Made by a program: the position numbers and the translations under genes. This document shows, in pieces, positions 49,984 to 64,000 of a stretch of 64,000 bases of DNA (position 1 is its first letter; every line of letters begins with the position of its first letter). Origin of the DNA: Pseudomonas viciae (GTDB taxonomy: Bacteria; Pseudomonadota; Gammaproteobacteria; Pseudomonadales; Pseudomonadaceae); assembly GCF_004786035.1 (NCBI RefSeq), contig NZ_CP035088.1, positions 1,090,001 to 1,154,000 of the forward strand, in the 5' to 3' direction. The notes below the pieces were generated by a model. That model saw only the letters and a program-made list of their open reading frames with translations. It was not told where the DNA came from and made no database searches.

Positions 49984-50015
49984 CTGTGGCGAAGGGGCTT
50001 GCTCCCTCGCCACAA
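49984..50015. repeat. REP-like palindrome (GGCGAGGGAG class)
   Basis: CTGTGGCGAAGGGGCTTGCT followed by CCCTCGCCACA, an imperfect version of the 6820 palindrome between convergent genes. Confidence 0.65.
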
Positions 50016-50074
50016 TGGCTCATACTTTCGAAACACCGTAGCGGGGCAGTGTTTCTGAGTGCAGCAAAGCCCCC

Positions 50075-51583
50075 TCACTCAAAGACCAAAACCTCACATC
50101 CCTTGGCCTCAACCATCTGCGCAAACCCCGGCAACCGCGCCACAAACTCCGCCTCAAACGCCAAATACCGATCCTGCGCCGCCAGGTAACGAATCTCCGG
50201 CTTGACCCGCGCAATATCCTTGGAAGACAGCTTCACCACCTCATTGCTGCGCTGATTCCAAAACCAGGCCAAGGTCTGCGTGCCGAACGTATTCGTCCGG
50301 TAATTCCACACCCACCAGTCCCCATGTCCCCGGGCAACATGCAACTGTCCATGAAATGTGCGCAACGTGATGACCTGCTTGGGCTGCGTAACCAGCAGGC
50401 GCGTGTCCTGGCGCAGCTCACTGCCAAAGCCGTCCAACAGCGCCTTCGTCGTAGCGCCAGTCACGAAGTTGAAGCGCCACGCCAGCAGCATCGTCTCCTG
50501 ATAACCGGAGTGCTCAAGGTTCTGCCGCTCGCCTTCGCTGAACAGCAGGACCTCGTCACCCCCCAGGTACGCGGTCGCCGCCCGCAGTTTATAGGCGTCA
50601 GCCGGCATCGGCTTGGCGGCAGTGGCCGGGTGCGCGAGGTCTTGATTCCAGACCCAGCAGCACGGGCCGTTGTGCTGCATGAACAGCAAACGGCGCGGGC
50701 CGATGGGCAGGATTGTCAGTTCATCCGAGTATTCGAAAATGACCTCGCTGGAGTCTGCCGTGAGCCGCCAGATCCGGGTCAAATGCTCGGGTTCGTAAAT
50801 ACGCTGACGTTCGAATATCTCTGAATCGACCACCACGCAGGGATCTTCAAACTCCGACCACTCCATCCCGGCGGGTCCGAAACGTTGGATGTCATCACCT
50901 TGGCGAATCTCGTATTGGTAGCGGTCATCCGAGCTGTAAGCGCCGCTTTTTACCCGACGCTTCCACAGGCTGCGCTGGGCATTGGCATCGATGAGCTGCA
51001 GGTCTGCGCCGTCCACAGCATCGGTGCGGTGTTCGAGCATGTCCTGCTCAGCGGGCGGCCATGGGTTGTAATCGATCAGAAAGCACAGCCACCGGTCTTC
51101 GTCCTGCTCGGTGATGGCGGCCCAACCGTTGCGGTAGTTGTATTCATGCACATAAGTGGGCCCGGGATAGTCGTGGACTTCCTGCAACCAGTTCAACTTG
51201 CTGCGTTTGGCTTTGGTTTTTTTGCGCTCGACGGCGACAGGCTTCGGCGGCTCGATCAACGTCGGCGTGTAGCCTGGCTCTGGGTTCTGTGCCCGCCAGT
51301 GTTGTGCAAACGCCTCGCGCTGATCGGCCGGGAATATCACCGGTCGGTAATCATCGCCACCAGCGTCCAGGTTCCACAGGTCGAAACCGTGACGCGCCAA
51401 CACAGTCGCCAACGCCTCGAAACAGACCTCGGGCATTTCGTTGGAAAGCTCATCCAACAGCGCCTCGAATTCCGGCCCGGAAAACACACCGATATTGGGA
51501 TAGTAATGCTGCAGCAGCCCAAGCAACTCGCCGCCGGGTGTTTTCCAATCGATATGAACCAACGGATCAAAACGGGATTGCAT
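50075..51583 (-). CDS. Conserved hypothetical protein, unrecognised family
   Basis: 502-aa soluble protein from ATG 51583, behind AAGGA. It is rich in Trp and Tyr and has repeated beta-strand-like segments reminiscent of a beta-propeller or WD-like sheet (IWRLTADSSEVIFEYSDELTILP, WWVWNYRTNTFGTQTLAWFWN). No signal peptide. The longer frame upstream lacks a ribosome site and runs into a repeat. It diverges from the C58-like protease gene, so the two might be linked; no function is claimed. Confidence 0.7.
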   Translation of the reverse strand: MQSRFDPLVHIDWKTPGGELLGLLQHYYPNIGVFSGPEFEALLDELSNEMPEVCFEALATVLARHGFDLWNLDAGGDDYRPVIFPADQREAFAQHWRAQNPEPGYTPTLIEPPKPVAVERKKTKAKRSKLNWLQEVHDYPGPTYVHEYNYRNGWAAITEQDEDRWLCFLIDYNPWPPAEQDMLEHRTDAVDGADLQLIDANAQRSLWKRRVKSGAYSSDDRYQYEIRQGDDIQRFGPAGMEWSEFEDPCVVVDSEIFERQRIYEPEHLTRIWRLTADSSEVIFEYSDELTILPIGPRRLLFMQHNGPCCWVWNQDLAHPATAAKPMPADAYKLRAATAYLGGDEVLLFSEGERQNLEHSGYQETMLLAWRFNFVTGATTKALLDGFGSELRQDTRLLVTQPKQVITLRTFHGQLHVARGHGDWWVWNYRTNTFGTQTLAWFWNQRSNEVVKLSSKDIARVKPEIRYLAAQDRYLAFEAEFVARLPGFAQMVEAKGCEVLVFE

Positions 51584-51720
51584 CACGCCAGCCTTCCTTG
51601 TGATTTCGCCTCTGCGCCATCTTAGCCGCACCCCACAAAAAAGTACGCCACCCACGTCACAAGCCACCCACTTACCTCCGGCAACCCCAACCTGTTTGGA
51701 CAGAGGACATTGTCGACCCT

Positions 51721-51761
51721 GTGGCGAGGGAGCTTGCTCCCGCTGGGCTGCGCAGCAGCCC
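51721..51761. repeat. Composite palindrome repeat, copy 1
   Basis: Two adjoining hairpins: GTGGCGAGGGAGCTTGCTCC and then GCTGGGCTGCGCAGCAGCCC. The 41-bp unit is identical at 55480-55520. Confidence 0.8.
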
Positions 51762-51857
51762 CAAAACCATCCACCCAAATGTCCCAGGAAAATGGCGCCC
51801 AGCTTACCCCTCGTCTACCGTTGACAAGAACCATCACCCCCCAAGGAGAAAGCCCCC

Positions 51858-52481
51858 ATGTTCACCTTCCCCCGAGCACACCAGAACAGAAGATGGGAAG
51901 GGCAGGGCACTCTATTCGGCGGCGGGATTCCCTGGTTTGGCGGGGATGGCCTGGGTGTGTGCTTCGGCTTCAGTACACTCTGGGTCGAGATCGGTGCGCC
52001 CTATGACTGTTTCGCCGCGTTGCAGGCCAGAAAGGAGGAGATCGCCGACGCTCAGCAGGGGCTGACTGCCAATATGATTCTCGGCGTGCGCATGGCACTG
52101 GAGGACACTGCCGAGTCGATCATCAGGCGCGCTCCCACCAGAGTAATGAGCTATACCGACGGCGTCGCCAGCCACATCATCCTCGACATTCTCCAGCAGC
52201 CCGGGGCCCATCACTTCATTATTTCCTTCTACTACGTCGATGGCCCGCAGGGCGGTGGTGGCCATGCCATCGCCGCGTCCTTTGACGAGGGCCAGACGGG
52301 GAGACTCTTCGATCCCAACTACGGTGTCGGCGCCTATCAATCGCGGACCGATCTATGCAACGACCTGCACGCGCTGCTGGCGAGCTACGTCGCTCCCGGC
52401 GGACATGTAACCGAGAGCTATCTGTTGGAGTTTGATCACGAGGATGAATTCGGTGAGTTCCAAGGAGCAGCAGCCCACTGA
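51858..52481 (+). CDS. Stand-alone YopT/AvrPphB-like (C58) cysteine protease domain
   Basis: 207-aa protein showing the C58 triad: Cys35 in LGVCFGFSTLWVE, His136 in GGGGHAIAAS and Asp152 in RLFDPNYG. The Cys-x-G/small-Ser-x-x-W, small-x-H-hydrophobic and FDPNxG contexts are those of YopT and AvrPphB. It has no long N-terminal targeting region, unlike type III effectors. It could be a secreted effector or a toxin module. ATG follows AAGGAGAAAGCCCCC. The assignment rests on motifs only. Confidence 0.65.
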   Translation: MFTFPRAHQNRRWEGQGTLFGGGIPWFGGDGLGVCFGFSTLWVEIGAPYDCFAALQARKEEIADAQQGLTANMILGVRMALEDTAESIIRRAPTRVMSYTDGVASHIILDILQQPGAHHFIISFYYVDGPQGGGGHAIAASFDEGQTGRLFDPNYGVGAYQSRTDLCNDLHALLASYVAPGGHVTESYLLEFDHEDEFGEFQGAAAH

Positions 52482-52503
52482 CCGGCATCGAATTCAGCCC
52501 ACT

Positions 52504-52908
52504 TCAGTGGCCGGGGAATTCAGATCGATAGCAAACCGGCGAACTCCCCTCTGCGCGCTTTTCCACCTCATCCTCCAGCCATTCGGCCAACACCACGGCA
52601 TTGTTTTCCAGCGTGGATTTGGCCGCATACACCAAGGTGAGATTGCCACCCTGGGCAATGTCCACCAACGGCCACCAACACTGCGGCCGCGCAGCCAACT
52701 CCTTGCGATAGGCCACTTTGAACTGCTCGAACGAAACAGCCCCGGCCTTGAACGCCTTGCGCAACTCATGGGACGGCGCAACCTCCGGCAGCCACTGCGC
52801 AATGGGGAGTTCGTCCTTGCGACAATTACGCGGCCATAGACGGTCCACCAAAACCCGCACGCCATCCTCAGCGCTCGCTGCTTCATAGGCTCGTTTGCAT
52901 TGGATCAT
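52504..52908 (-). CDS. DUF488 family protein
   Basis: 134 aa. DUF488 signature RVLVDRLWPRNCRKDELPIAQWLPEVAPSHELRKAF and LTLVYAAKSTLENNAVVLAEWL. The family has a Rossmann-like fold and unknown activity. ATG 52908 (MIQCKRAYEAA) is preferred to the longer frame. Confidence 0.87.
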   Translation of the reverse strand: MIQCKRAYEAASAEDGVRVLVDRLWPRNCRKDELPIAQWLPEVAPSHELRKAFKAGAVSFEQFKVAYRKELAARPQCWWPLVDIAQGGNLTLVYAAKSTLENNAVVLAEWLEDEVEKRAEGSSPVCYRSEFPGH

Positions 52909-53038
52909 GGGGGCATGCCTGCGGAAGAGGGGCAGCGTCAGAATAGGCCGACGTCCGCGGCGCGGCCAGGTCCCACATGGCAATTGCGGCCGAACAGGTT
53001 GGCGTCCAGGTCCGGTCGCAAGGGGCGCCGTGGGCGGA

Positions 53039-53926
53039 TCAGCGCAGTTGCTTCAACATCGTCTGCAGTTGGCTATTGCGCGCCTCGTCGAGTGGGAAGA
53101 CCGGCAGGCGCGGGTCGCCGACCTCCAGGCCGAGGGTGCGCAAACCGGCCTTGATGGTGGCGGGCAAGCCTCCCTTGAGGATGAAATCCAGCAGTGGCAA
53201 TTGACGATAGAACAACGCCCGGGCCTGGTTCAGGTCGTTGGCCAACACGGCTGCGTACAGGTCGAGGTTGAGCTGCGGGATAAGGTTCGGCGCGGCGGTG
53301 CACCAGCCCTTGGCTCCAGCCGCGAAAGCTTCCAGCGCCAGTGGGTTGCAGCCGTTGTAGAACGGCACCTGGCCTTCGCCGAGCAGTTGCAGCTTGTGCA
53401 TGCGCTGAATGTCGCCGGTGCTTTCCTTGACCATGGTGACGTTCTCCACGGCGTTGAAAATCCGCAGGATCAGCTCCACCGACATGTCGATGCCGCTGGT
53501 GGCAGGGTTGTTGTAAAGCATGATGGGCAGGTCGATGCTGGCGCCGATGGCCTGGTAGTGCGCAAGGATTTCCGCCTCGCTCAGCTTCCAGTAAGAGGCC
53601 GGCAACACCATCACCACATCGGCGCCATGGGTCTGGGCAAAACGCGCGCGGCGTACCGCCTTGGCGGTGGTCAGGTCAGACACGCTGACCACCGTCGGCA
53701 CGCGGCCGGCGACGCGGGCAATGCTGAACGCGCTGACCTGGTCCCACTCCGCATCGCTCAGGTAGGCGCCTTCGCCGGTGCTGCCCAAGGGCGCGATGGC
53801 GTGGACGCCGCTGTCGATCAAGCGGTCGATGGACTGGCCCAGTGCATCCAGGTCCAAGCTTTGGCCGTCGGCGGAAAAGGGCGTGATGGTGTAACCGATG
53901 ATGCCGTGGATGTTGGGGGTAGACAT
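53039..53926 (-). CDS. Dihydrodipicolinate synthase / N-acetylneuraminate lyase family aldolase
   Basis: 295-aa class I (Schiff-base) aldolase. Substrate carboxylate loop in PLGSTGEGAYLS, catalytic Tyr in IMLYNNPATSG and Schiff-base Lys in MVKESTGD. Probably a catabolic keto-acid aldolase or dehydratase rather than lysine-pathway DapA, given its partner class II aldolase. Lies 19 bp after that gene and forms an operon with it. Confidence 0.85.
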   Translation of the reverse strand: MSTPNIHGIIGYTITPFSADGQSLDLDALGQSIDRLIDSGVHAIAPLGSTGEGAYLSDAEWDQVSAFSIARVAGRVPTVVSVSDLTTAKAVRRARFAQTHGADVVMVLPASYWKLSEAEILAHYQAIGASIDLPIMLYNNPATSGIDMSVELILRIFNAVENVTMVKESTGDIQRMHKLQLLGEGQVPFYNGCNPLALEAFAAGAKGWCTAAPNLIPQLNLDLYAAVLANDLNQARALFYRQLPLLDFILKGGLPATIKAGLRTLGLEVGDPRLPVFPLDEARNSQLQTMLKQLR

Positions 53927-53945
53927 GGCTTCGCTCCTAATGGGT

Positions 53946-54728
53946 TCAGTTCAGGCAATCGGCGTGTTGGCGCAGGTTCTGCCGGGCGTAGTAGTTGAAG
54001 GCGGCGGCGTGACGCTTGGGGCTGGCGATCCAGTCGTGGGCTTCGCGGCCCAGGTGCGGCAGGATCGGTTTCACCTCGCCGGCGGCCATCGCCAGCAATT
54101 GCAGCTTGGCGGCGCGTTCGATCAGTTGGGCGATGTTGCAGGCTTCCTCCACGGTGGCGCCGGTGGACAACTGGCCGTGGTGGGAAAGCAGGATGGCGCG
54201 CTTGTCACCCAGGGCGCCGGCGATCAATTCGCCTTCCTCGTTGCCCACCGGCACGCCCGGCCAGCCCTCCAGGAACGCGCAGTCCTCGTAGAGCGGGCAG
54301 AGGTCCATGTGGGAAATCTGCAACGGCACTTCCAGCATCGACAGCGCGGCGATGTGGGTAGGGTGGGTGTGGATGATGCAATTCACATCCGGCCGGGCGC
54401 GGTAGACCCAGGTGTGAAAGCGGTTGGCCGGGTTGGGGATGCCGTGGCCCTCCAGCACCTCCAGGTCCTCGTTGATCAACAACAGATTGCCGGCGGTGAT
54501 CTCGTCGAAACCCAGACCCAGTTGCTGGGTGTAGTAAGTGCCGGGCTGCGGCCCGCGCGCGGTAATCTGCCCGGCCAGGCCGGAGTCGTGGCCGTTTTCG
54601 AACAGGATGCGGCAGGTCAGGGCCAGCTTTTGTCGTACAGTCCACGTATTATCCGGCAGGGTCTTCTGCATCTGGTTAACGGCATGCTGGACCAGCTGGT
54701 CCTTGGGCGTCGCCAGGGTCTTGCTCAT
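53946..54728 (-). CDS. Class II aldolase/adducin-family protein
   Basis: 260 aa. Zn-ligand His residues in CIIHTHPTHIAAL and the further His in ILLSHHGQLST; Glu in GFDEITAGNLLLIN. Members cleave L-fuculose- or tetronate-type phosphates or decarboxylate 3-keto acids. First gene of an operon with the DapA-like lyase and divergent from an XRE-cupin regulator. Confidence 0.87.
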   Translation of the reverse strand: MSKTLATPKDQLVQHAVNQMQKTLPDNTWTVRQKLALTCRILFENGHDSGLAGQITARGPQPGTYYTQQLGLGFDEITAGNLLLINEDLEVLEGHGIPNPANRFHTWVYRARPDVNCIIHTHPTHIAALSMLEVPLQISHMDLCPLYEDCAFLEGWPGVPVGNEEGELIAGALGDKRAILLSHHGQLSTGATVEEACNIAQLIERAAKLQLLAMAAGEVKPILPHLGREAHDWIASPKRHAAAFNYYARQNLRQHADCLN

Positions 54729-54818
54729 ATCAGCTCTCCCGATTCGTTCTTTGGTTGATCTTGATCCGCGTCATGGAAGCCCGAGAAAAGGTGTGCTCGT
54801 GACACAAAAAATACTATA

Positions 54819-54833
54819 TGACACAAAGTGTCA
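54819..54833. promoter_or_regulatory. Palindromic operator between aldolase operon and XRE-cupin regulator
   Basis: TGACACAAAGTGTCA, a perfect palindrome with 6-bp arms. A further half-site GTGACACAAA lies at 54799-54808. The likely ligand is the adjacent XRE-cupin protein, controlling both genes. Confidence 0.65.
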
Positions 54834-54878
54834 TTTGCAATCGAAGATTGTCCGTTTCTTTGGAAATGATGGTTCCCT

Positions 54879-55445
54879 ATGTCCATTCGTTTGAAATTGC
54901 TCAGGAAAAAACTCGGGGTGACACTGGATGTCCTGGCCGAGAAAACCGGGATGACCAAGAGCTACCTGTCCAAGGTGGAGCGGGGCTTGAGCACGCCCTC
55001 CATTGCCACGGCGCTCAAGCTCGCCAAGGCGTTGCACGTGAAAGTCGAGGAATTGTTTTCCGAAGAAAACGTCGCCCTCGACAGCTACAGCCTGGTGCGC
55101 AGCGAAGACCGTCAATCGCTGGCGGCGAGCAGCGGCAGCTCCGAATACGCGGTCCTCGCCCACCAGGTGTCCGAGCGCAGCCTGCTGCCCTTCATCCTCT
55201 ATCCGGCGAGCGAATTCACCGCCCACCACGCGTTCAAGGAACACACCGGGGAGGAATTCCTGTTCGTGCACGAGGGCCAGGTGGAAGTGGACTTCATGAA
55301 CGAGCGCGTGCTGCTGAACCGTGGTGATGCCTTGCACTTCAATGCGCAGAAGCCCCATCGCTTGCGGTCGGTGGGCGAGGTTCAGGCGCAGTTGTTGGTG
55401 GTGGTGCACAGTGATGAAGCGGCGGAGAAGGGCGAGGGCGCCTAG
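54879..55445 (+). CDS. XRE-cupin transcriptional regulator
   Basis: 188 aa. N-terminal XRE helix-turn-helix (about 5-60: LGVTLDVLAEKTGMTKSYLSKVERG) and C-terminal cupin effector domain (about 105-180) with EHTGEEFLFVHEGQVEV and HFNAQKPHRLRS. Members bind small metabolites in the cupin pocket. Divergent from the aldolase/lyase operon and probably its regulator. Confidence 0.9.
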   Translation: MSIRLKLLRKKLGVTLDVLAEKTGMTKSYLSKVERGLSTPSIATALKLAKALHVKVEELFSEENVALDSYSLVRSEDRQSLAASSGSSEYAVLAHQVSERSLLPFILYPASEFTAHHAFKEHTGEEFLFVHEGQVEVDFMNERVLLNRGDALHFNAQKPHRLRSVGEVQAQLLVVVHSDEAAEKGEGA

Positions 55446-55479
55446 CACCACGTTGCTCACTGGGTAAACATCAAACCCC

Positions 55480-55520
55480 GTGGCGAGGGAGCTTGCTCCC
55501 GCTGGGCTGCGCAGCAGCCC
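55480..55520. repeat. Composite palindrome repeat, copy 2
   Basis: Identical over 41 bp to 51721-51761 (GTGGCGAGGGAGCTTGCTCC plus GCTGGGCTGCGCAGCAGCCC). Confidence 0.8.
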
Positions 55521-55666
55521 TTATTCGAAAGTCCCGACCCAAACAAACTCCGGCTTCTCCCCTCCGGCTAAATTTAGGAGGGAGGGGTTACGGCGCTGGA
55601 TAAAACTCAAGTTGCTCGGTCGACCGTCGATAGGTTGCGCAGCAATCTCATACGAAGGACCGGAAC

Positions 55667-56152
55667 ATGTACTACCCACGCGAAGCCGAAAAAGATCACC
55701 TGTATACCCGAATCATCCTGCTTACCGTCGCGTGCTGTGTGCTCCTGTTCCTCGCGTCCCTGGCAAAACATTCAGGGATCATCTACGGAGCGATTCAATG
55801 GAGTGCCGTCGAGGTGAAAGGCACCGTGACGCAACTTGAAAGCATTCCAATGAACGAAAACGGCATGATCATTCACTACCGATACACCGACGGTGATCAG
55901 CGAGTCCACGAAGACGAATACCCAGACCAACGCTATATCGAACACACCCAGTACGAGGTAGGTGGCGAAGTTCCGCTGCTGTACTCACGTTGGTTTCCCG
56001 AAGTCAGCAGCATCGCCACCGAACTGCATACGTATCGCTCCGGCTTCTTCATCATGGCTGGCGGGGTGTTGCTGACGTTGGTGTTCCTGTGGATCTCCTT
56101 CATGACGTTCGGTCGCATTTACCGCATGAAGGAAGAAGACCGTTTCTACTAA
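55667..56152 (+). CDS. DUF3592-type membrane protein
   Basis: 161 aa. Two hydrophobic helices (about 17-40 and 125-150) flank a periplasmic or cytoplasmic beta-domain with the DUF3592-like pattern VEVKGTVTQLESIPMNENGMIIHYRYTDGDQ and YEVGGEVPLLYSRWFPEVS. Unknown function. Followed 115 bp later by another membrane-anchored protein. Confidence 0.75.
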   Translation: MYYPREAEKDHLYTRIILLTVACCVLLFLASLAKHSGIIYGAIQWSAVEVKGTVTQLESIPMNENGMIIHYRYTDGDQRVHEDEYPDQRYIEHTQYEVGGEVPLLYSRWFPEVSSIATELHTYRSGFFIMAGGVLLTLVFLWISFMTFGRIYRMKEEDRFY

Positions 56153-56267
56153 AAGGCTGGCAGGCTAGGTTCTCAGCTAGCCTACTGCCCACCTCACTTC
56201 GTAGGGAACGGGGGCCAACTTCCCCAGTTTCCCTTTCTTTTTTCTCCTTAGGGATTAGGAGCTATTG

Positions 56268-56873
56268 ATGACCGATGTCTCAACACTCAAGCAGTACTCA
56301 CTAAAAAGCTGGGCCGCGATCGTGGCGATTGTTGGCTTACTGGCTGGGTTTCCCAGCATTTCATCCTGGCTGGCCGAAATGAGGGCCGACTACTACAAAA
56401 GCCACTTCATTGGCCGCTGGACCGAGGAGTTCAGCTATCCCAATGCCGAAGGTGTTCAGTTCGAGTTCAAGGGCATGATCGAATACTTCGCCAACAACCA
56501 TTACAACGTCAGCGGCGTGGTCGCGCTGGTTGGAACAGAGCCTTCGAAACCTTACAGGCTCGAATACAGCGTCAATGGCGCCGGGACCTGGAGCGCAGAT
56601 AGCGAAAACCTGTCGTTCACGCTGCAGCAGATGAAGACGTTGCCCAAGAATTACACGGTAGACGGCAAAGACATTTCGCCTTTGACGGTGGCGCAGTTCA
56701 TCCGGCCCAGCATGCCCAACCTCAGTGATATCTACCCCGAAGGTGGATCGGGACAGGCGCGCATCAGAGAGATTGCGAAGAACAAGATTGTCTTGGAGCA
56801 AATGGACTTGCAGGGCAGGCCCTTCATCGTGACGACCCATCGTCGGATAGCTGAGCCGTCTAAGGAACCTTGA
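56268..56873 (+). CDS. Membrane-anchored protein of unknown function
   Basis: 201 aa from ATG 56268, behind TTAGGAG. A single N-terminal helix (about 14-30, AAIVAIVGLLAGFPSI) is followed by a beta-rich soluble domain with WTEEFSYPN and VRALVGTEPSK-like strands. Not assigned to a family with confidence. It is the last gene before the bacteriocin region. Confidence 0.65.
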   Translation: MTDVSTLKQYSLKSWAAIVAIVGLLAGFPSISSWLAEMRADYYKSHFIGRWTEEFSYPNAEGVQFEFKGMIEYFANNHYNVSGVVALVGTEPSKPYRLEYSVNGAGTWSADSENLSFTLQQMKTLPKNYTVDGKDISPLTVAQFIRPSMPNLSDIYPEGGSGQARIREIAKNKIVLEQMDLQGRPFIVTTHRRIAEPSKEP

Positions 56874-57255
56874 TTCGAGGCCCGGATATCCGGCTGAAAT
56901 GGATAACGTAAGCCGGGTCTGTCAGGCATCGAGCGACCTCCGCCCCGTAAGCCACAGCGCCTTGCGCCTTTGCCTACAACTACGCCAGAATCCGCCGGCT
57001 TGTCCGCCTCGGGTTGCGTCGGTAGTTTGAGTCCTGTCACTGCTCATCAGTGATCGGGTTTAGCAGCTCGTGGTGAAACAGGTTGTGCAAGGCGTCATCC
57101 AGTCAGGATTCCCATCCTGCACTTGATGGTGGCTGTGCGCAGGGCGTCCCCGGACGCGCCGGTTTCTTGTTTCCCCGGTCTGCTAACCTGCGTACAGCTG
57201 CCTCCCATCGTTTAGCAGCGAGCGGGTGATGGCTCCAACTACAGGAAGCAAGACG
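56874..57255 (+). ncRNA. Conserved DUF6124 leader, copy 1 (candidate structured RNA)
   Basis: No gene. From 56958 (CGCCTTGCGCC) to the DUF6124 start the sequence is repeated at 59293-59592. Hairpin TCACTG-ctcat-CAGTGA at 57037-57053. TTAGCAG occurs at 57060-57066 and 57212-57218 and its reverse complement CTGCTAA at 57180-57186, so the middle element can pair with either. In the second copy all three carry the same altered bases. Confidence 0.55.
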
Positions 57256-57609
57256 ATGGCAAAAGATTCGCCGAATCCCCCCGATACGAACGAACACGTC
57301 TCCCGGGCTCAGTCTGCCCGCAACAAGAAAATCGATGACGCTGCCACGCGAGCGTTGGATTACTACCTGAAGCCTAAGAGCGAAACGTCTGATAAGTCGG
57401 ACTCCATTTTTCGGATTGATCCGGGTGTGGATTCTGAGTGTTTGCTTGCGAATCTCAGTGAGAATTTGGCTTCGGCGAATGCCATGATCAGTGGTTTGGC
57501 GTTTGATCTGGATGGCTCGCGACGGCGTGTTGCGTTGGGGATTTTGCAGGTGATTGAGGTGAGTGAGCTGTTGGCGAATCGGGCGTTGGATATTGTTGAG
57601 GTGAGGTAG
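57256..57609 (+). CDS. DUF6124 family protein, copy 1
   Basis: 117-aa soluble protein typical of Pseudomonas. N-terminal disordered part ends in RAQSARNKK; the conserved core is RALDYYLKP and FRIDPGVDSECLLANLSENLASANAMIS, followed by GSRRRVALGILQVIEVSELLANRALD, all predicted helical. About 85% identical to the protein at 59593. Function unknown; its long conserved leader implies tight regulation. Confidence 0.85.
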   Translation: MAKDSPNPPDTNEHVSRAQSARNKKIDDAATRALDYYLKPKSETSDKSDSIFRIDPGVDSECLLANLSENLASANAMISGLAFDLDGSRRRVALGILQVIEVSELLANRALDIVEVR

Positions 57610-57631
57610 CGACTCAGTTACAGCGGTGTAA

Positions 57632-57662
57632 GAAAAAGGTCTTGTCTAACAAGGCCTTTTTC
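57632..57662. terminator. Bidirectional terminator between DUF6124 copy 1 and immunity gene
   Basis: AAAAAGGTCTTG-tctaa-CAAGGCCTTTTT; A and T tracts on both sides serve both converging genes. Confidence 0.85.
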
Positions 57663-57679
57663 AAAAATGCCCGCGTTCG

Positions 57680-57910
57680 TCATTCGAGGCAGACGATTTG
57701 AATGATGCGGTTATCACCATGAATGGTTGTGTGAGTCCACTCTTCTATGGTCTTTATCTGCTGTGGTGACAGGTCGTAGACAAAGCAAAAATCTTCAGGC
57801 TTTGTCCAACCCATAAGTGCAGCCAATGAGTCCATGTATATGCTTGGGACTTCCACGGTCTGTATTAGCTCTTCGGTAGTCTGGTCAAAAATTTCAACGA
57901 CGGGCTTCAT
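57680..57910 (-). CDS. Probable immunity protein of the adjacent S-type pyocin
   Basis: 76-aa acidic protein starting in a 4-bp overlap with the pyocin stop, the usual toxin-immunity layout. Sequence MKPVVEIFDQTTEELIQTVEVP resembles DUF7683-type small proteins and not clearly the colicin E3 immunity protein (cloacin immunity). The region is AT-richer than core genes, suggesting transfer. The immunity role is inferred from position and size. Confidence 0.75.
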   Translation of the reverse strand: MKPVVEIFDQTTEELIQTVEVPSIYMDSLAALMGWTKPEDFCFVYDLSPQQIKTIEEWTHTTIHGDNRIIQIVCLE

Positions 57911-59100
57911 TTTTCTACTTTCCTTGTCAGATCGGCGGGTTTGGTTTGTTCCCCAGTTATTGGATCGAACTCACCAAGGTGTTGACCTTGTTTTGTGTAT
58001 AGCTCTACAGCGCCATGCTGTGAGTCCCATTCATAAATCTTGCCTTTACGATCCTTCCATCTTCGCCGTTTAACACCGCCGCCACGTACAAACGTTTTGG
58101 ATGGAGCAATCTTGGCTTCTGGAAACGCTGGAAGCAGCGACGGGGGCTTGTAGTACTTATGATCCCCAGGAACACTCAAGACCACATAAACCGGCCGAAC
58201 CCCCGAATCCGCCGGAAACACCAGAATGAAATCCCTGTACTCCGGCGGATAGATCGGGTTGACGATGATGCTGTCGGCCATCGGTGTCGGGGGGTAGATC
58301 CAGATGTGCGGGGCCTGTGGCGCGGCTTCCAGCGCGGGGATACCGAGGGTGTCAGACGGATTGGTAGCTGGCGTCCAGATCAGTTCGATGCCATCCCCCA
58401 GGTCGGCGATGAACTGGTCGGCTCGTGGGGTGAACTGGACAACGTCGACCATTTCCCAATCACGATTCTGGCCGGTGTAGAAGCCGTAGCCCTTGAGGCT
58501 GCCGTCGGCCTGTTGCTCGATGCTCAGGCGCATGCGGCTGCGGGCCTGTTTGAGTTTGCGTAATTGGTCTTCGCTATAGAGCGCGCTGTCACCCAGGCTG
58601 CTGGGCCAGAGCAAGGCGACGACGCCTGTCAGCAGGGCCGCGCCGACGGTGCCGCCGGCAGTTGCAGCCGTGGAAGTTGCCGAACCGCCCAGCGCGAGCC
58701 TGCCCAAGGTAGCGGGAACCGTACCAGCGCCGATCCGCTTGAGGGGGATTGTGCCGGATGAGTCGACGCTCCTGCCGCCGAGCCACATGAGATCGCCGTA
58801 CTGCTTGACCAGATCTGCCGGGACGTAGCCGTTGGGGTTGCTGTAATTGATGAGGCCGTTGGGCAGCTTGCAGCTTTTGGCAAACACGCTTCTAGTCACG
58901 ATGGGTAAAGGCTTTTTATCCACCTTGGCCCAGCGTTCTTGCTCATAGACCGCCTGCCGGGCAAGCATGGCTTCATAAGCCTGCTGTCGGGCTTCGCGTT
59001 CGGCCAGCTCGGTGGCCGTCATGTCCCGATAGGTGACGTGATGTCCGTCGCCGCCGGGCGGGTTTCGAACCTGGGGGATGTCCTTTTTGCGTGTCGCCAC
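57907..59100 (-). CDS. S-type pyocin with colicin E3-like rRNase domain
   Basis: 397-aa bacteriocin. Residues 1-125 are polar and helical; 125-170 form a Gly/Ala hydrophobic stretch (LGGSATSTAATAGGTVGAAL); about 190-315 is the pyocin translocation domain (DWEMVDVVQFTPRAD ... SGVRPVYVVLSVPG). The C-terminus is the colicin E3-type 16S rRNA nuclease: RRRWKDRKGKIYEWDSQHG, with catalytic Asp359, His362 and Glu366 in EWDSQHGAVE. It lacks a long receptor-binding N-terminus, so uptake may differ from classical S pyocins. Confidence 0.88.
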   Translation of the reverse strand: MATRKKDIPQVRNPPGGDGHHVTYRDMTATELAEREARQQAYEAMLARQAVYEQERWAKVDKKPLPIVTRSVFAKSCKLPNGLINYSNPNGYVPADLVKQYGDLMWLGGRSVDSSGTIPLKRIGAGTVPATLGRLALGGSATSTAATAGGTVGAALLTGVVALLWPSSLGDSALYSEDQLRKLKQARSRMRLSIEQQADGSLKGYGFYTGQNRDWEMVDVVQFTPRADQFIADLGDGIELIWTPATNPSDTLGIPALEAAPQAPHIWIYPPTPMADSIIVNPIYPPEYRDFILVFPADSGVRPVYVVLSVPGDHKYYKPPSLLPAFPEAKIAPSKTFVRGGGVKRRRWKDRKGKIYEWDSQHGAVELYTKQGQHLGEFDPITGEQTKPADLTRKVEK

Positions 59101-59592
59101 GTAGTGAGTCTCGTCCGGTAAAGGCAGGACAGACGCTAACGCGGGAAGAGAGGGGCGCGATGTAGGAGGTTTCTTGAAGTGGTTGTTCTGGTTTCCTCAA
59201 AACAGGTAAGGCTGGCTATTGAGGGGCGGAACAATCTGAAGCGTCAGCCGGGGCTGTCAGTCGTTGGGCAACCGCAACTCGCCAGCCGACGTCGCCTTGC
59301 GCCTTTGCCTACAACTACGCCAGAATCCGCCGGCTTGTTCGCCTTGGGTTGCGTCGGTAGTTTGGGACCTGTCACTGCTCATCAGTGATCGGGTTTAGTC
59401 GCCCGTCGTTGCTAAGTCGCTCAAGCGTCCATCAGTCAGGAATCCCCATCCCTGCACTCGATGGTGGCTGTGCGCAGGGCGCCTCCGGGCGCGCCGATAT
59501 CTTAGCTCGTCGGTCGACTAACCTGCGTACAGCTGCCTCCCAATCGTTTAGTCGCGAGTGGGAAGTAGCCTCAACCAAAGAGAGCTAAGGCT
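59101..59592 (+). ncRNA. Conserved DUF6124 leader, copy 2 (candidate structured RNA)
   Basis: No gene. From 59293 it repeats the leader of copy 1. The hairpin TCACTG-ctcat-CAGTGA is at 59372-59388. TTAGTCG at 59395-59401 and 59548-59554, with CGACTAA at 59515-59521, replace the TTAGCAG/CTGCTAA set of copy 1: the same three sites changed in concert. 59101-59292 holds the pyocin upstream region. Confidence 0.55.
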
Positions 59593-59952
59593 ATGGTCAA
59601 AATTACACCGAATCCTCCAGTTACGGATGAACCCGCATCTCGGGCCCAATCTGCCCGCAACAAAAAGCTCGACGAAGCGGCCACTCGTGCCCTGGATTAC
59701 TACCTAAAACCCAAGCCTAAGGACGAAACGTCTGATAAGTCCGACTCCATTTTACGGATTGATCCGGGGGTGGATTCTGAGTGTTTGCTTGCGAACCTCA
59801 GTGAGAATTTAGCTTCGGCGAATGCCATGATCAGTGATTTGGTGTTTGATCTGGATGGATCGCGGCGACGTGTTGCGTTGGGGATTTTGCAGGTGATTGA
59901 GGTGAGTGAGTTGTTGGCGAATCGGGCGTTGGATATTGTTGAGGTGAGGTAG
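59593..59952 (+). CDS. DUF6124 family protein, copy 2
   Basis: 119-aa paralogue of copy 1, starting MVKITPNPPVTDEPASRAQ, with near-identical C-terminal two thirds (IDPGVDSECLLANLSENLASANAMIS, then GILQVIEVSELLANRALDIVEVR). The differences are mostly near the N-terminus and a two-residue insertion (KPKPKDET). Same leader and terminator as copy 1. Confidence 0.87.
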   Translation: MVKITPNPPVTDEPASRAQSARNKKLDEAATRALDYYLKPKPKDETSDKSDSILRIDPGVDSECLLANLSENLASANAMISDLVFDLDGSRRRVALGILQVIEVSELLANRALDIVEVR

Positions 59953-59981
59953 GGCGGCAGCGCTACGTGCTGCCGGGATTG

Positions 59982-60012
59982 GAAAAAGGTCTTGCCCAGC
60001 AAGGCCTTTTTT
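59982..60012 (+). terminator. Terminator after DUF6124 copy 2
   Basis: AAAAAGGTCTTG-cccag-CAAGGCCTTTTTT; a second hairpin GGCGGCAG-CTGCCG lies just upstream at 59953. Confidence 0.85.
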
Positions 60013-60193
60013 GTGCCCGAGGGAGGCTAAATCCTCCAGCAAACCCGAGTCCCCTAAGCTCCGCATTCTTCATGCATGCGAGCTTTTCTTCTGCTAGCTG
60101 CTGAGGTGTGACAAATTTTCGCAGGGCGGCAGTGGCGTTTTGCTGCTATACCTGAGTCGGACATATTCGGCGCGATGCAAACTGGAGTTCAGG

Positions 60194-60637
60194 ATGAAGA
60201 TTCTTGCAGGGTTGGTCGCGGGATTGATATTAGCCATTCTTGTTTCGACAGTTGTAGCCATTGCCGGGGCGGCATCTCCGAGAGCCGCCGGAGGGACTGG
60301 CGCGATTGTTTTCTTCGTGACATGGATTATTGCACTAGCAATAGCTGTCTTGGCCCCCACTGCTGGCAAGGCATGGCGTCGACTTTTGGTCACCTCGGGC
60401 ATCGCTGCATTCATGCTCCCCTTGGCTGGTATTGTTTTTACCGGGAGCCATATCGTCACAAATATCAGTGGTGCTCATTCAGGTGCTGAAACCGCAGGAG
60501 CCGCGATTGGTGGCACTTTGGTAAGTGGCTTTTTAGGATTCATTGGCTTTTTCCTGGGTGTGATCTTTCTCATCGTCGGTTTGCTGATTGGTCGAGATAA
60601 ACAAGTGATTTACATTCAGCCGCCACCTAACTCCTGA
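60194..60637 (+). CDS. Small membrane protein of unknown function
   Basis: 147 aa from ATG 60194 behind GGAGTTCAGG. Four hydrophobic segments (about 4-25, 38-58, 68-88, 110-135) and a short polar tail with DKQVIYIQPPPNS. No family is recognised. It lies between the DUF6124 repeat and the AT-rich island. Confidence 0.65.
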   Translation: MKILAGLVAGLILAILVSTVVAIAGAASPRAAGGTGAIVFFVTWIIALAIAVLAPTAGKAWRRLLVTSGIAAFMLPLAGIVFTGSHIVTNISGAHSGAETAGAAIGGTLVSGFLGFIGFFLGVIFLIVGLLIGRDKQVIYIQPPPNS

Positions 60638-60875
60638 AGGGTGAAAATAGTGCTGGTTTTGAGTTGCCCATAAATAGCGACTAATAGAGGGTTTCGCCGC
60701 GAAAGCGGGGCATATTCCTTCGTATGTTTCAAATTGCCTGATTTATGCTTGATATGTAAAAATAATTTGGCTGTCCATCCTCCTTAGCTACCAGGGTTTT
60801 CGAAGGGGGCAAAAAGTTCTAGCTGACGGCTAACCTCAGAACTCCATAACTCTAGTACGTGCAAAAGGAGTTGTT
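60638..60875 (+). promoter_or_regulatory. AT-rich promoter region of the TIGR04141 gene
   Basis: No gene seen. A strong ribosome site AAAAGGAG (60863-60870) precedes the next ATG. GC content drops here compared with the regions to the left. Confidence 0.4.
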
Positions 60876-62459
60876 ATGGCTAATACTTATAATATCTACA
60901 AAGTCAAATCGGCAAAGCTTGACCAGCTAAAAGAGAAGTTGAAGTTAGTTGGATTGGTGGAGCAAAAAACTCTAGAAAAGGACGGGTACTTGAAAGTTTT
61001 CTACTTTTCTGAAAAGGTAGAAGGTAACGAAGTTTGGTGGTGGAAGACATACCGTGACTTCTTCAATGAGGGCATTGAGGAACCAAAGAATGTTTTTAAC
61101 TTTGCTGTATTGTTATGTCAAAACACTGCAGAGCCCGAAAAAATATTCGCTGTTAGTTTGGGTAAGTCGCATTTTTATCTTTCTAAATTCATTCAGCTAG
61201 ATTTTGGTATTGACCTTGCTCTACATATGGCCGATGAGAGTACAATACTTCTCAAAAAAAGCCGGTATTTTACTGGCACTAAAAGGCAAGACGTTTCCTC
61301 TTATCAGCAGTTTCAGGTGAATAACTATGAAGCTGGTGAATCCGTAGATCACATAAAACTAAAAGCAGCAAACAAAACTGTCTGGGGGAATCGTAACATT
61401 ATTTTTGCTGACTCTATCCAGATGGATGTGGATAAGCAGCCCATGCATCTTCCTGAAATATTCAAAATTATTGAGGCCAGCTTCAAGGATGATCAGATAA
61501 TCCATCTACCCAAACTTGAATCCGCCAATGCAGATATTGCAGGTGACCTGGATGCTCAAGCTCTCACTCATTTGAGAGATGGCGAGGGGGGCGTGGGAGT
61601 TGACCAGTTTCATGTTAGCGGAGTATCGATATGTTTCAGCTTTCATGATTATGACTACGACATCAAAGCTAAGAGCCGCGAAGGAAAACCCCTGAGTAAG
61701 CAGCTAGGCAATAGCATAGATATCGAAGCGGTTTCGGAGTTTCTTGCTGATAATCCAGATATCGATGATATAAACAATGTGACGGTGCAGTTTAAAAATG
61801 AGGATGCTGGGCGTTTTACGAAAAGTCTTAAAGAGCTGCTGGATATGCCTATTGTTTGGGGCGAACAGCAATATTTTTTAAAAAATGGCGAGTGGTTCTT
61901 TTTTAATCAGGTTTTTATGGACTACCTGAAACGATCTCTCAATGCTATTGAGGTTGTTCTCGAAGAACAACTGATTGAAGAAGAGTTTGTTGCTTGGCAA
62001 GCACGCAAACGGGCCAATCGAAAAGCCGGAGATGACAAGGTTGATTATCGCGAAGCCTATTTTAATCAAAAAATATGTAACGAGCGCGGATACAAGCTTT
62101 TAGACCGAGAGCTCACCGCTATTCGCGCATTAGACAAAAAAAGGAGGGATTATAAAGTTGAAGTGGCTGACCTTTACTACAAGGGTGAGATAGTGTCCGT
62201 AAAAATCTCAAAGAAAAAGCCTGAGCTAATTTACAATATTGAGCAGTCGAAAGACTCCATAACCCTTATTAAAAACGGCGCGATAAAATTTCGTAAAAGG
62301 CTTACTTCGGCAGCGCTTTGGTTTGTCTTCGAGGAGAATGTTAAAACCATCACGGATGTAAACTCCATTCAGTTTCTATTAGCTGTCGAAGCCTGGAGGA
62401 AGCTAGTGGTCGGATACGCGCTCAAGCCGAAAATTTACATATCGCGCCACATAAAATAA
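60876..62459 (+). CDS. TIGR04141/DUF6119 sporadically distributed protein
   Basis: 527 aa, AT-rich. N-terminal half has the family pattern KVFYFSEKVEGNEVWWWKTY and EKIFAVSLGKSHFYLSKFIQLDFGIDLAL, with a later SVSFHDYDYDI-like strand. The C-terminal half is charged and helical (VVLEEQLIEEEFVAWQARKRANRKAG) and ends in LAVEAWRKLVVGYALKP. TIGR04141 members are scattered among bacteria, often near defence genes, with unknown activity. It converges on the retron-type RT. Confidence 0.8.
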   Translation: MANTYNIYKVKSAKLDQLKEKLKLVGLVEQKTLEKDGYLKVFYFSEKVEGNEVWWWKTYRDFFNEGIEEPKNVFNFAVLLCQNTAEPEKIFAVSLGKSHFYLSKFIQLDFGIDLALHMADESTILLKKSRYFTGTKRQDVSSYQQFQVNNYEAGESVDHIKLKAANKTVWGNRNIIFADSIQMDVDKQPMHLPEIFKIIEASFKDDQIIHLPKLESANADIAGDLDAQALTHLRDGEGGVGVDQFHVSGVSICFSFHDYDYDIKAKSREGKPLSKQLGNSIDIEAVSEFLADNPDIDDINNVTVQFKNEDAGRFTKSLKELLDMPIVWGEQQYFLKNGEWFFFNQVFMDYLKRSLNAIEVVLEEQLIEEEFVAWQARKRANRKAGDDKVDYREAYFNQKICNERGYKLLDRELTAIRALDKKRRDYKVEVADLYYKGEIVSVKISKKKPELIYNIEQSKDSITLIKNGAIKFRKRLTSAALWFVFEENVKTITDVNSIQFLLAVEAWRKLVVGYALKPKIYISRHIK

Positions 62460-62754
62460 AGATCGAAAGGGGTGGATTTGTTTAGGCAGAGAAGCTGTCC
62501 CCATTATTGAATGCAGGCGCTCAGCCAAGATGCGGCTACCGATCAATAGCTGCTTGTCACGGGCCGTTTTTAGCTTCTAGTCGAGCAGGCAGAATTTTTT
62601 GCAAATTAAACTAAAGACATACCTATAGCAGTTTTATAAAGCTGATTGTTCTTCATGTTTTATCCTCGTTAGGGAGATTTAATGTGAAAAAACGGGTGGT
62701 TTTTTTTGTTGAAATTAAGTCCACTCCGTTCGTTCTCACATACAAGCGATTCGC
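62460..62754. other. AT-rich gap between TIGR04141 and RT genes
   Basis: About 295 bp at the 3' ends of both convergent genes. There are poly-T/poly-A tracts near 62684-62712 but no clear hairpin terminator, and no gene or msr-msd-like structure is evident. Confidence 0.4.
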
Positions 62755-63702
62755 TTATTTTTTTCCTCTTTGTCTGAGCAAATCCGAGATTAGCCGGCCT
62801 GTATATTTGCCTCTCATTTTTGCAACAAATAGTGGCTCAATGTCTTGGGCGAAACCCATCAATCCTTGAAGGTGGAGAATTGATTTTTCATCTAGTTCAT
62901 GATGGGCGTAACGATGAATCATCGCGCTAATCAATCTTTTTCTATCGCGCCCCAAAGAGACCTCGTTATCATTGGATATGATTAGTCCAGTGATACGGCG
63001 CTGTTTTTTCTTTGAAGCGTAGACTGTTTTTTCAGAGTTGATATGAAGGCGTGGATAAGGAATGCTTTCAAGCGTTTCCAAGATAAATTTCTCAATCTCA
63101 GATGTCGCGCCTTTATCGTTTGTGGAGAATGTAAGATCATCCGCATAACGAGAGTACACTATGTTGCGCTCTAGGCTCCAGGATTCCACTGCAAGATCAA
63201 AATAATACATTATCGAATTAGACAGGATTGGAGAACTAGGCGCTCCAATGCTGAGGGCAAGTCGAGCTGTTGCTCGATCTCTAATACAGCTCACTCTTGC
63301 AATATCCTTTATGCTTTGCACTGATAGCTTTCCGCAAAGCACGTAGGAAAGGTGATTCACTAGGTCTGATTCGGTTATAGATCCAAAAAAATTGGAAAAG
63401 TCGAATTTGGCTATATAACTGTTTTGCTTGTGCCGTTCTGCATTTGCTTTGATGCTTGAGCCTTGCCTGTAGGCTGCAGCGCATTCGTGCACAGGTAACT
63501 GAGAGAACCAACTATTAACAAGTAAATTTTGTATTACTTTAGTCTCTTTTGCCGGCTGTGCGATAGGCCTCATTCCACCAGATTTTTTTGGTATGAAGTA
63601 TCTTTTGTAAGCATAAGGCGCCCTTACAATCAGTCGGGCCACATCATGTTCAGACAAAGACAACATCTCTGACATATGTTTGCGAAAGTCATATAGGCTC
63701 AT
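62755..63702 (-). CDS. Retron-type reverse transcriptase
   Basis: 315-aa RT of retron size. NAERH at 87-91 matches the retron NAxxH motif (region X). Catalytic Asp101 is in KFDFSNFFGSI; YADD lies at 186-189 (VYSRYADDLTFS). RRITGLIIS (235-243) corresponds to the retron VTG motif (region Y). It starts within a 4-bp overlap of the upstream winged-helix gene. The msr-msd RNA must lie upstream of the partner, beyond the window edge. Probable anti-phage defence. Confidence 0.88.
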   Translation of the reverse strand: MSLYDFRKHMSEMLSLSEHDVARLIVRAPYAYKRYFIPKKSGGMRPIAQPAKETKVIQNLLVNSWFSQLPVHECAAAYRQGSSIKANAERHKQNSYIAKFDFSNFFGSITESDLVNHLSYVLCGKLSVQSIKDIARVSCIRDRATARLALSIGAPSSPILSNSIMYYFDLAVESWSLERNIVYSRYADDLTFSTNDKGATSEIEKFILETLESIPYPRLHINSEKTVYASKKKQRRITGLIISNDNEVSLGRDRKRLISAMIHRYAHHELDEKSILHLQGLMGFAQDIEPLFVAKMRGKYTGRLISDLLRQRGKK

Positions 63703-64000
63703 TTTGGGCCCCCCAGTTTCGCACGGTCAATTGCTCTGGTGCGGTTGCGCTCCGTTCCTGTGATCCTGTAATAATCTACGCACTCAACACGCGAGCGTAG
63801 CGGGTCAACAGCGATGCCTGATTTCAGGATGAGGCGGAGGGTATGAAAAGTATCGTCATCACAGGCGTAAAATGTTGAATCGCTGTATTCGATTTTTCTA
63901 ATAAGTCTAAATTCCTGAAGAAGAAAGAGTTTTCGCCTCAAATCGTCCCTATGTACCTCTCGGCCTAAGGCTTTGATTGAGTCAATCAACTCTTTCTCTT
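63699..64000 (-). CDS. Winged-helix partner of the retron RT, C-terminal part
   Basis: Open from the window edge to a stop at 63699; a TTG at 63989 could start it but the frame stays open to 64000, so it is probably longer. The visible part has a winged-helix pattern (DDLRRKLFLLQEFRLIRKIEYSDSTFYACDDD) followed by HTLRLILKSGIAVDPLRSR. The 4-bp overlap with the RT suggests a retron effector or regulatory subunit, as in retron types with helix-turn-helix or PRTase-winged-helix partners. Confidence 0.7.
   Translation of the reverse strand, partial: EKELIDSIKALGREVHRDDLRRKLFLLQEFRLIRKIEYSDSTFYACDDDTFHTLRLILKSGIAVDPLRSRVECVDYYRITGTERNRTRAIDRAKLGGPK

Follow-up and report, generated by a model that had tools for sequence, protein, structure and literature searches.

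The window analyzed here, a stretch of 64,000 nucleotides (nt) of Pseudomonas viciae DNA (assembly GCF_004786035.1, contig NZ_CP035088.1, positions 1,090,001 to 1,154,000), contains two genes of the DUF6124 family, each of which is preceded by a leader combining an RNA of the C4 family with its predicted target sites. The sites were named after the annotation of P1 and PMC5320573, so that the three 7-nt motifs per leader described in an initial annotation of this DNA correspond to a1, a' and a2. Each leader also has a second triple, b1, b' and b2, which that annotation had overlooked and whose b2 site overlies the Shine-Dalgarno region of DUF6124. The features of the two units are listed below in window coordinates.

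56960..56999, plus strand: unit 1, element preceding the promoter, conserved almost unchanged in many units
57000..57028, plus strand: unit 1, promoter-like TTGTCC-17-TAGTTT, recognized by eye and by conservation among units
57022..57074, plus strand: unit 1, candidate c4-a1b1 target region (RF03163, 32.7 bits, E value 4.5e-5, below the gathering score of 46.7)
57060-57066, plus strand: unit 1, a1, 7/7 pairing with a'
57075-57080, plus strand: unit 1, b1, just past the c4-a1b1 match, from comparison of close unit pairs
57122..57208, plus strand: unit 1, C4 antisense RNA (RF01695, 78.1 bits), probable mature form 57128-57205
57166..57174, plus strand: unit 1, b', C4 hairpin loop, run with its own Shine-Dalgarno region of 10 including G-U pairs, 5 Watson-Crick
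57180..57186, plus strand: unit 1, a', left single-stranded when C4 is folded by prediction, 7/7 with a1 and a2
57212..57218, plus strand: unit 1, a2 target, from complementarity to a'
57244..57252, plus strand: unit 1, b2 target on the Shine-Dalgarno sequence, from complementarity to b'
57256..57609, plus strand: unit 1, DUF6124 gene, 117 amino acids (PF19619, 94.2 bits)
59295..59334, plus strand: unit 2, element preceding the promoter, conserved almost unchanged in many units
59335..59363, plus strand: unit 2, promoter-like TTGTTC-17-TAGTTT, recognized by eye
59357..59409, plus strand: unit 2, candidate c4-a1b1 target region (RF03163, 31.4 bits, E value 1.1e-4, below the gathering score)
59395-59401, plus strand: unit 2, a1, 7/7 pairing with a'
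59411-59416, plus strand: unit 2, b1, just past the c4-a1b1 match, recognized by eye
59457..59543, plus strand: unit 2, C4 antisense RNA (RF01695, 71.9 bits), probable mature form 59463-59540
59500..59508, plus strand: unit 2, b', run with its own Shine-Dalgarno region of 8 Watson-Crick pairs, 9 including G-U
59515..59521, plus strand: unit 2, a', 7/7 with a1 and a2
59548..59554, plus strand: unit 2, a2 target, from complementarity to a'
59582..59589, plus strand: unit 2, b2 target beside the start codon, from complementarity to b'
59593..59952, plus strand: unit 2, DUF6124 gene, 119 amino acids (PF19619, 90.4 bits)

All positions originally given for the a motifs were correct: TTAGCAG occupies 57060-57066 and 57212-57218 and CTGCTAA 57180-57186 in leader 1, and the places of these motifs are taken by TTAGTCG (59395-59401 and 59548-59554) and CGACTAA (59515-59521) in leader 2. 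The hairpin described as invariant, GTCACTG...CAGTGAT, is indeed identical in both leaders (57036-57054 and 59371-59389), and its formation is predicted by folding. Within each unit a' pairs with a1 and a2 in runs of 7 and 7, compared with 4 and 4 when the two units are crossed. In the b triple of unit 1, CTTGTTTCC in the C4 loop lies opposite GGAAGCAAG in the Shine-Dalgarno region, forming a single stretch if G-U pairs are counted, and in unit 2 TCTTAGCTC lies opposite GAGCTAAG.

The earlier statement that no named RNA family fits these leaders had to be abandoned. In an Rfam scan of window positions 50000-64000, both leaders passed the curated cut-off for C4 (45 bits), and both upstream regions fell below that for c4-a1b1 (46.7 bits); it is likely that these regions act as c4-a1b1 despite the sub-threshold family score, because a1 pairs 7/7 with a'. 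As is characteristic of C4 RNAs, a' and b' can base-pair with a2 and b2, which lie near the ribosome-binding site of the gene that follows, with b' of unit 1 needing G-U pairs beyond a run of 5. When folded alone, the probable mature C4 RNAs, which begin with GGT at 57128 and 59463, gave z scores of -5.35 (unit 1) and -5.74 (unit 2), with b' in a hairpin loop and a' unpaired. When 34 C4 RNAs were aligned (21 of the 22 copies in this genome, 12 others and that of P1), 20 pairs were predicted, 13 of which had two-sided changes in some sequence.

Very probably, each leader is a complete C4-type antisense unit, in which a small gene is repressed by its C4 and insulated from its paralogues. A single transcript would comprise a1b1, C4, a2b2 and DUF6124, from which a C4 RNA of about 78 nt would be excised (in P1, by RNase P); its a' strand would then pair with a2 and its b' loop with b2 on the Shine-Dalgarno region, turning DUF6124 translation off. 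The upstream a1b1 would be a second C4 binding site, possibly a decoy or a switch. Processing, action in trans and translational repression are extrapolated here from P1, whose central element, as far as the excerpts of the cited papers extend, is processed into an RNA of its own, about 77 nt long, that binds its target around the ribosome-binding site (PMC5320573, PMC12197685), with a' pairing to an upstream site and b' to the ribosome-binding site itself (PMC5320573). Between P1 and P7, four nucleotide differences in C4 and its targets suffice to restrict cross-reaction (PMC5320573). Since the P. viciae genome contains 22 copies, most of which have their own matched a and b code, each C4 is expected to silence the gene that it precedes and to have little effect on paralogues of that gene.

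Cognate and non-cognate pairing were compared in three genomes, that of the window (G000) and two further ones (G019 and G049), which contain 22, 42 and 55 C4 units, respectively (119 in total; counts by genome follow this order). The proposal that all three 7-mer sites change jointly with complementarity kept at the RNA level was borne out in this set: a' was perfectly complementary to its own a2 in 91 of the 119 units (19, 33 and 39) and to its own a1 in 88 (20, 32 and 36), whereas non-cognate pairs with different a' matched perfectly in only 14 of 4930 cases at a2 (3/426, 2/1616 and 9/2888) and 23 of 4930 at a1 (0/426, 1/1616 and 22/2888). By the rule used to locate a', the genomes contain 11, 23 and 35 distinct 7-mers. 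For b', Watson-Crick runs with the Shine-Dalgarno region separated cognate from non-cognate pairs with an area under the curve of 0.970, 0.890 and 0.865 in the 20, 41 and 49 units having a start codon. When both sites were considered together, in the 100 of 119 units with 40-60 nt between C4 and the start codon, runs of at least 6 at both a and b sites were found in 73 of 100 cognate pairs (17/19, 28/39 and 28/42) versus 10 of 3546 non-cognate pairs (1/342, 5/1482 and 4/1722). Similar results were obtained for 50 named loci, all from Pseudomonas and picked by protein similarity to unit 2: C4 was present in all 50, a' paired perfectly in 49 of 50 at each of a1 and a2, and non-cognate perfect matches amounted to 16/1952 (a2) and 28/1952 (a1). 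Outside the genus, a' runs of at least 6 with both targets were detected in 11 of 12 loci (the two same-genus loci of this batch being excluded), and the single miss resembles a wrong anchor.

The copy number of C4 follows that of DUF6124. The P. viciae genome has 22 C4 copies and 20 DUF6124 matches, 16 of which have a C4 within 700 nt upstream, as do 35 of 41 in G049. Among 59 Pseudomonas genomes, C4 (E value at most 0.001) was detected in 54, with at least 10 copies in 37, at least 20 in 26 and a maximum of 55, and the copy numbers of C4 and DUF6124 were correlated (Spearman 0.88); the DUF6124 family reaches 41 and 43 matches per genome. In a phylum-wide sample, for which at most 20 candidates were scored per genome, C4 occurred in 30 of 200 genomes, 26 of these 30 having six or fewer copies. 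One dense cluster was observed in G019 (1820921-1827285), where four C4 matches lie in 6.4 kilobases (kb) and the DUF6124 proteins are 97-98% identical with different b' loops.

Several observations weigh against the interpretation of the leaders as C4-type antisense units. The consensus fold of the 34 C4 RNAs lacks the b' hairpin stem, though single-sequence folds show it, and in b' of unit 1 the longest uninterrupted Watson-Crick run with the Shine-Dalgarno region is just 5 (10 if G-U pairs are counted). Pairing between a' and a2 is imperfect in 28 of the 119 units, at least two of which (L060 and L109) look like anchoring errors, and the others may be decayed copies. In the earliest test, based on duplex energy summed over a and b in longer segments, the cognate pair was best in only 13 of 22, 16 of 42 and 13 of 55 units; this weak separation probably arises because C4 arms pair with many C-G-rich leaders. 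Run lengths on a' and b' were used afterwards. A consensus promoter scan of 56900-60100 revealed nothing above threshold, and four of the 20 DUF6124 matches in the P. viciae genome, one of them a fragment, have no C4 in the 700 nt upstream.

Some DUF6124 loci without a C4 match, or with a disrupted gene, show other arrangements. In the P. viciae genome, c4-a1b1-like leaders with no C4 match are located directly before DUF6124 at L028 (1233-1285, 46.6 bits) and L031 (1258-1310, 50.8 bits); the a site of L028, CTGCAAG, matches a' of unit L007, and this leader might be a trans target of another unit's C4. At L041, a DUF6124 gene without C4 adjoins a match to the PrrF small RNA. At L004 (4535966-4537006 of G000), the DUF6124 open reading frame (ORF) stops early and its C-terminal piece lies about 0.7 kb further on, as if interrupted.

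The central element had initially been thought to alternate between two stems. As a cis attenuator, it would remain part of the long transcript and alternate between the upstream and downstream copies as pairing partners; in a variant modelled on isrK of Gifsy-1, a short a1b1 RNA would serve as a decoy for C4. One part of this proposal stands, as both 7-mer copies are complementary to the central element, which thus has two targets; the alternation itself is not favored, given that the P1 C4 works as a separate, processed RNA (PMC5320573). The precedent of IsrK (PMC4825925, whose available sections do not mention C4) and the scores of two P. viciae leaders lacking C4 with the isrK family, although below its cut-off of 50 (26.2 bits for L028 and 36.6 bits for L031), are in line with attenuation. 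However, a' is placed inside an independently stable C4 whose stem pairs have two-sided changes, b' also pairs with the Shine-Dalgarno region, and no isrK match (E value at most 1) was found in window positions 50000-64000, which makes attenuation in cis unlikely.

The genes led by C4 are mostly, though not exclusively, DUF6124. Among 110 C4-led ORFs of the three genomes, Pfam assigned 78 to DUF6124, 6 to DUF3077, 4 to Bro-N and 22 to none of these, some of the latter being broken or wrongly framed; 9 of the 119 units had no ORF by the rule applied, at least one of them owing to a GTG start codon. A comparison of the DUF6124 and DUF3077 profiles (hhalign E value 8.8e-5, probability 60) is suggestive only of a relationship, and a third small cargo family has no match to either. 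In L119 of G049, a Bro-N protein (gene 140-652) has the start MIKVTPNPP, which resembles that of DUF6124; a swap of leader and first codons between cargo types seems to have occurred. Five cargo proteins had no match in a PADLOC search for defence systems, and a profile search of solved structures (E value at most 1) returned none.

DUF6124 was also considered as a phage gene, and this possibility was rejected on the outcome of searches with the two window units. Neither DUF6124 protein of the window matched PHROGs at an E value of at most 0.01, a scan of viral_contigs with the unit 2 protein (six short patterns, suited to close relatives only) gave no confirmed match, and a plasmid search with the unit 2 leader returned nothing. 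Among 50,697 phage records searched with the unit 1 leader, a single one contains a similar leader: 'Pseudomonas phage DVM-2008' (P. fluorescens Q8r1-96).

It is highly unlikely that the units are non-functional remnants of P1-like prophages. C4 is a phage immunity RNA, four of the 110 C4-led ORFs match Bro-N, the two of these tried in PHROGs matched phage anti-repressors, and one flanking ORF of the P. viciae copies matches HTH_3 and Peptidase_S24, families found in phage repressors; the DVM-2008 record points in the same direction. Against this, complementarity has been retained in most units despite changing codes, C4 is kept in all 50 named loci, the window DUF6124 proteins lack phage matches in the PHROGs and viral_contigs searches described above, and no family is shared by more than 2 of the 42 ORFs examined (out of 48) within 1.5 kb of the 22 P. 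viciae copies. Immunity of the P1 kind would involve icd-ant cargo in a phage context, whereas the cargo in the window is DUF6124.

Least credible is the DNA recognition set that the initial annotation had also offered, three copies of one operator co-evolving with a DNA-binding protein: short repeated motifs with common changes would suit it, but a genome holds up to 35 different a' codes, the central copy is inverted and lies within C4, the b targets lie on the Shine-Dalgarno region, and the C4 stems have compensatory pairs (13 of 20).

A further property of the array as a set of C4-type antisense units is the way in which its codes change. All b' loop strings are distinct inside each of the three genomes; among 102 paralogue pairs with at least 75% protein identity, 24 have a' in common and none has an identical b' string. 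In 32 close pairs, the proportion of differing positions was 43%, 46% and 40% in b1, b' and b2 and 24%, 21% and 23% in a1, a' and a2, compared with 19% in the C4 scaffold, 12% in the first 120 coding bases, 35% in other spacer and 30% in other 5' leader, so that the b triple appears to evolve about as fast as spacer with pairing mostly retained. Code switching in place is indicated after the counterpart of a 202-amino-acid ORF that ends at 56873 in the window: b' at this site is CTTGTTTCC in the window, CTTAACTCG or CTTAACTTG in L184, L187 and L209, and CTTAGCTCG in L208, L212, L216 and the second unit of L190.

Codes are nearly never shared within a genome and often between genomes, which needs explanation. 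At a protein identity of at least 70% (149 of 169 units used), both codes were common to 115 of 720 between-genome pairs versus 1 of 140 within-genome pairs, numbers to be read with the facts that the pairs are not independent, that identity is spread differently within and between genomes, and that the named loci were chosen by one query. In the identity ranges of 70-80, 80-88, 88-94 and 94-100%, both codes were shared by 18/104, 51/475, 29/101 and 17/40 pairs between genomes and by 0/48, 0/47, 0/29 and 1/16 within. In the sole within-genome pair, L151/L160, the loop flanks are alike and the part facing the Shine-Dalgarno region differs, as judged by eye. With a more tolerant measure (at most 1 difference over at least 14 aligned bases), b' was similar in 2/140 pairs within and 182/720 between genomes, and both codes in 0/140 and 114/720; at most 3 differences gave 3/140 and 116/720 for both codes. 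Near-identical b' loops do exist within genomes (L006/L012 with two differences, L188/L206 with one), a' differing in both pairs, and units L193 and L200 of P. frederiksbergensis have b' in common and different a'. Because matching by protein identity is open to gene conversion of the coding part, the test was repeated on C4 scaffold identity, a weaker control that gave Fisher p values of 0.01, 0.0004 and 0.001 above 82% and a p value of 1 at 75-82%; in the three whole genomes taken by themselves the contrast was small (both codes in 1/1773 pairs within and 4/3177 between). A tentative and rather doubtful explanation is that units with a code already present would be silenced by the resident C4 and lose whatever keeps them, leaving an array of mutually exclusive antisense identities. 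If so, the array would be comparable to chromosomal heteroimmunity or incompatibility groups, and DUF6124, DUF3077 and the other small proteins would be addictive or competitive cargo, not housekeeping proteins.

The 40-bp element upstream of the promoters is possibly a regulator site. Its 28-nt core was matched in 53 of the 119 units (at most 9 substitutions), and 11 of the 12 matches to the element in the P. viciae genome (at most 3 mismatches) are located before C4 units; other units have different recurring sequences in its place. Between the two units of the window, the minus strand (57680-59100) carries the gene of an S-type pyocin, which has a Cytotoxic domain, with a DUF7683 gene next to it, and a minority of the 50 named loci have DNA similar to this pyocin region close to DUF6124.

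A search of open-access literature, which lacks most subscription papers, turned up neither C4 arrays with cognate Pseudomonas genes nor any mention of DUF6124; DUF3077 came up in one paper. The C4 switch and multi-copy C4 in Acinetobacter are already known, and the array with cognate genes seems to be new within this literature. The RNA is of a known kind, and what is new is its setting: small genes led by C4 have expanded on the chromosome into an array whose codes are mostly private. The unstudied DUF6124 family thereby gains a probable regulator and becomes testable as antisense-repressed cargo. Dozens of riboregulators that share one RNA scaffold and are insulated from each other would coexist naturally in one cell, a set from which much could be learned about antisense specificity; the array also bears on the reason for the many C4 copies in Acinetobacter.

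Several known systems resemble these units in part. In type I toxin-antitoxin systems and plasmid incompatibility, an antisense RNA acts over a small ORF or a replicon, and cognate pairs have diversified; unlike those antisense RNAs, C4 pairs via two separate sites and is encoded on the same strand as its target. The isrK-orf45-anrP locus of Gifsy-1 also has a leader controlled by a small RNA, a small ORF and an anti-repressor-like gene, and a short RNA transcribed from the isrK promoter stimulates translation of the long transcript; in contrast to the window units, it is a prophage locus, and C4 is not named in the available part of its description (PMC4825925). In Burkholderia, C4 and isrK were reported as one transcription unit (PMC4603805). 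The Rfam families C4 and c4-a1b1 come from Weinberg et al. 2010 (PMC2864571), the former matched directly here and the latter below threshold; the excerpted text of that study does not mention copy number, DUF6124 or per-copy codes.

A chromosomal parallel is found in Acinetobacter baumannii, in which Weiss et al. 2016 (PMC5320573) described multi-copy C4-like small RNAs in one chromosome. Like its group 1 RNAs, those of Pseudomonas form a large chromosomal family with a'/b' variation, and apparent processing at GGW was reported there. The available sections of that account mention no target genes and suggest that the RNAs were co-opted for RNAs of phages or bacteria, whereas most copies here come with their own a1, a2 and b2 and are followed by a small gene after about 50 nt. 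With immI of P1 and P7 (c4-icd-ant), the units share the order a1, b1, c4, a2, b2 and gene, the lengths and spacing of the sites, the C4 family and one promoter region for antisense RNA and target. In P1 (AF234172), c4 is 77 nt long, a2 begins 4 nt past its end and icd starts 50 nt beyond it, compared with 50 and 52 nt from the probable mature C4 ends to the start codons in the window. By eye, P1 Icd is unlike DUF6124, and in contrast to immI the units are chromosomal, present in 22 copies, and mostly followed by DUF6124 instead of icd-ant.

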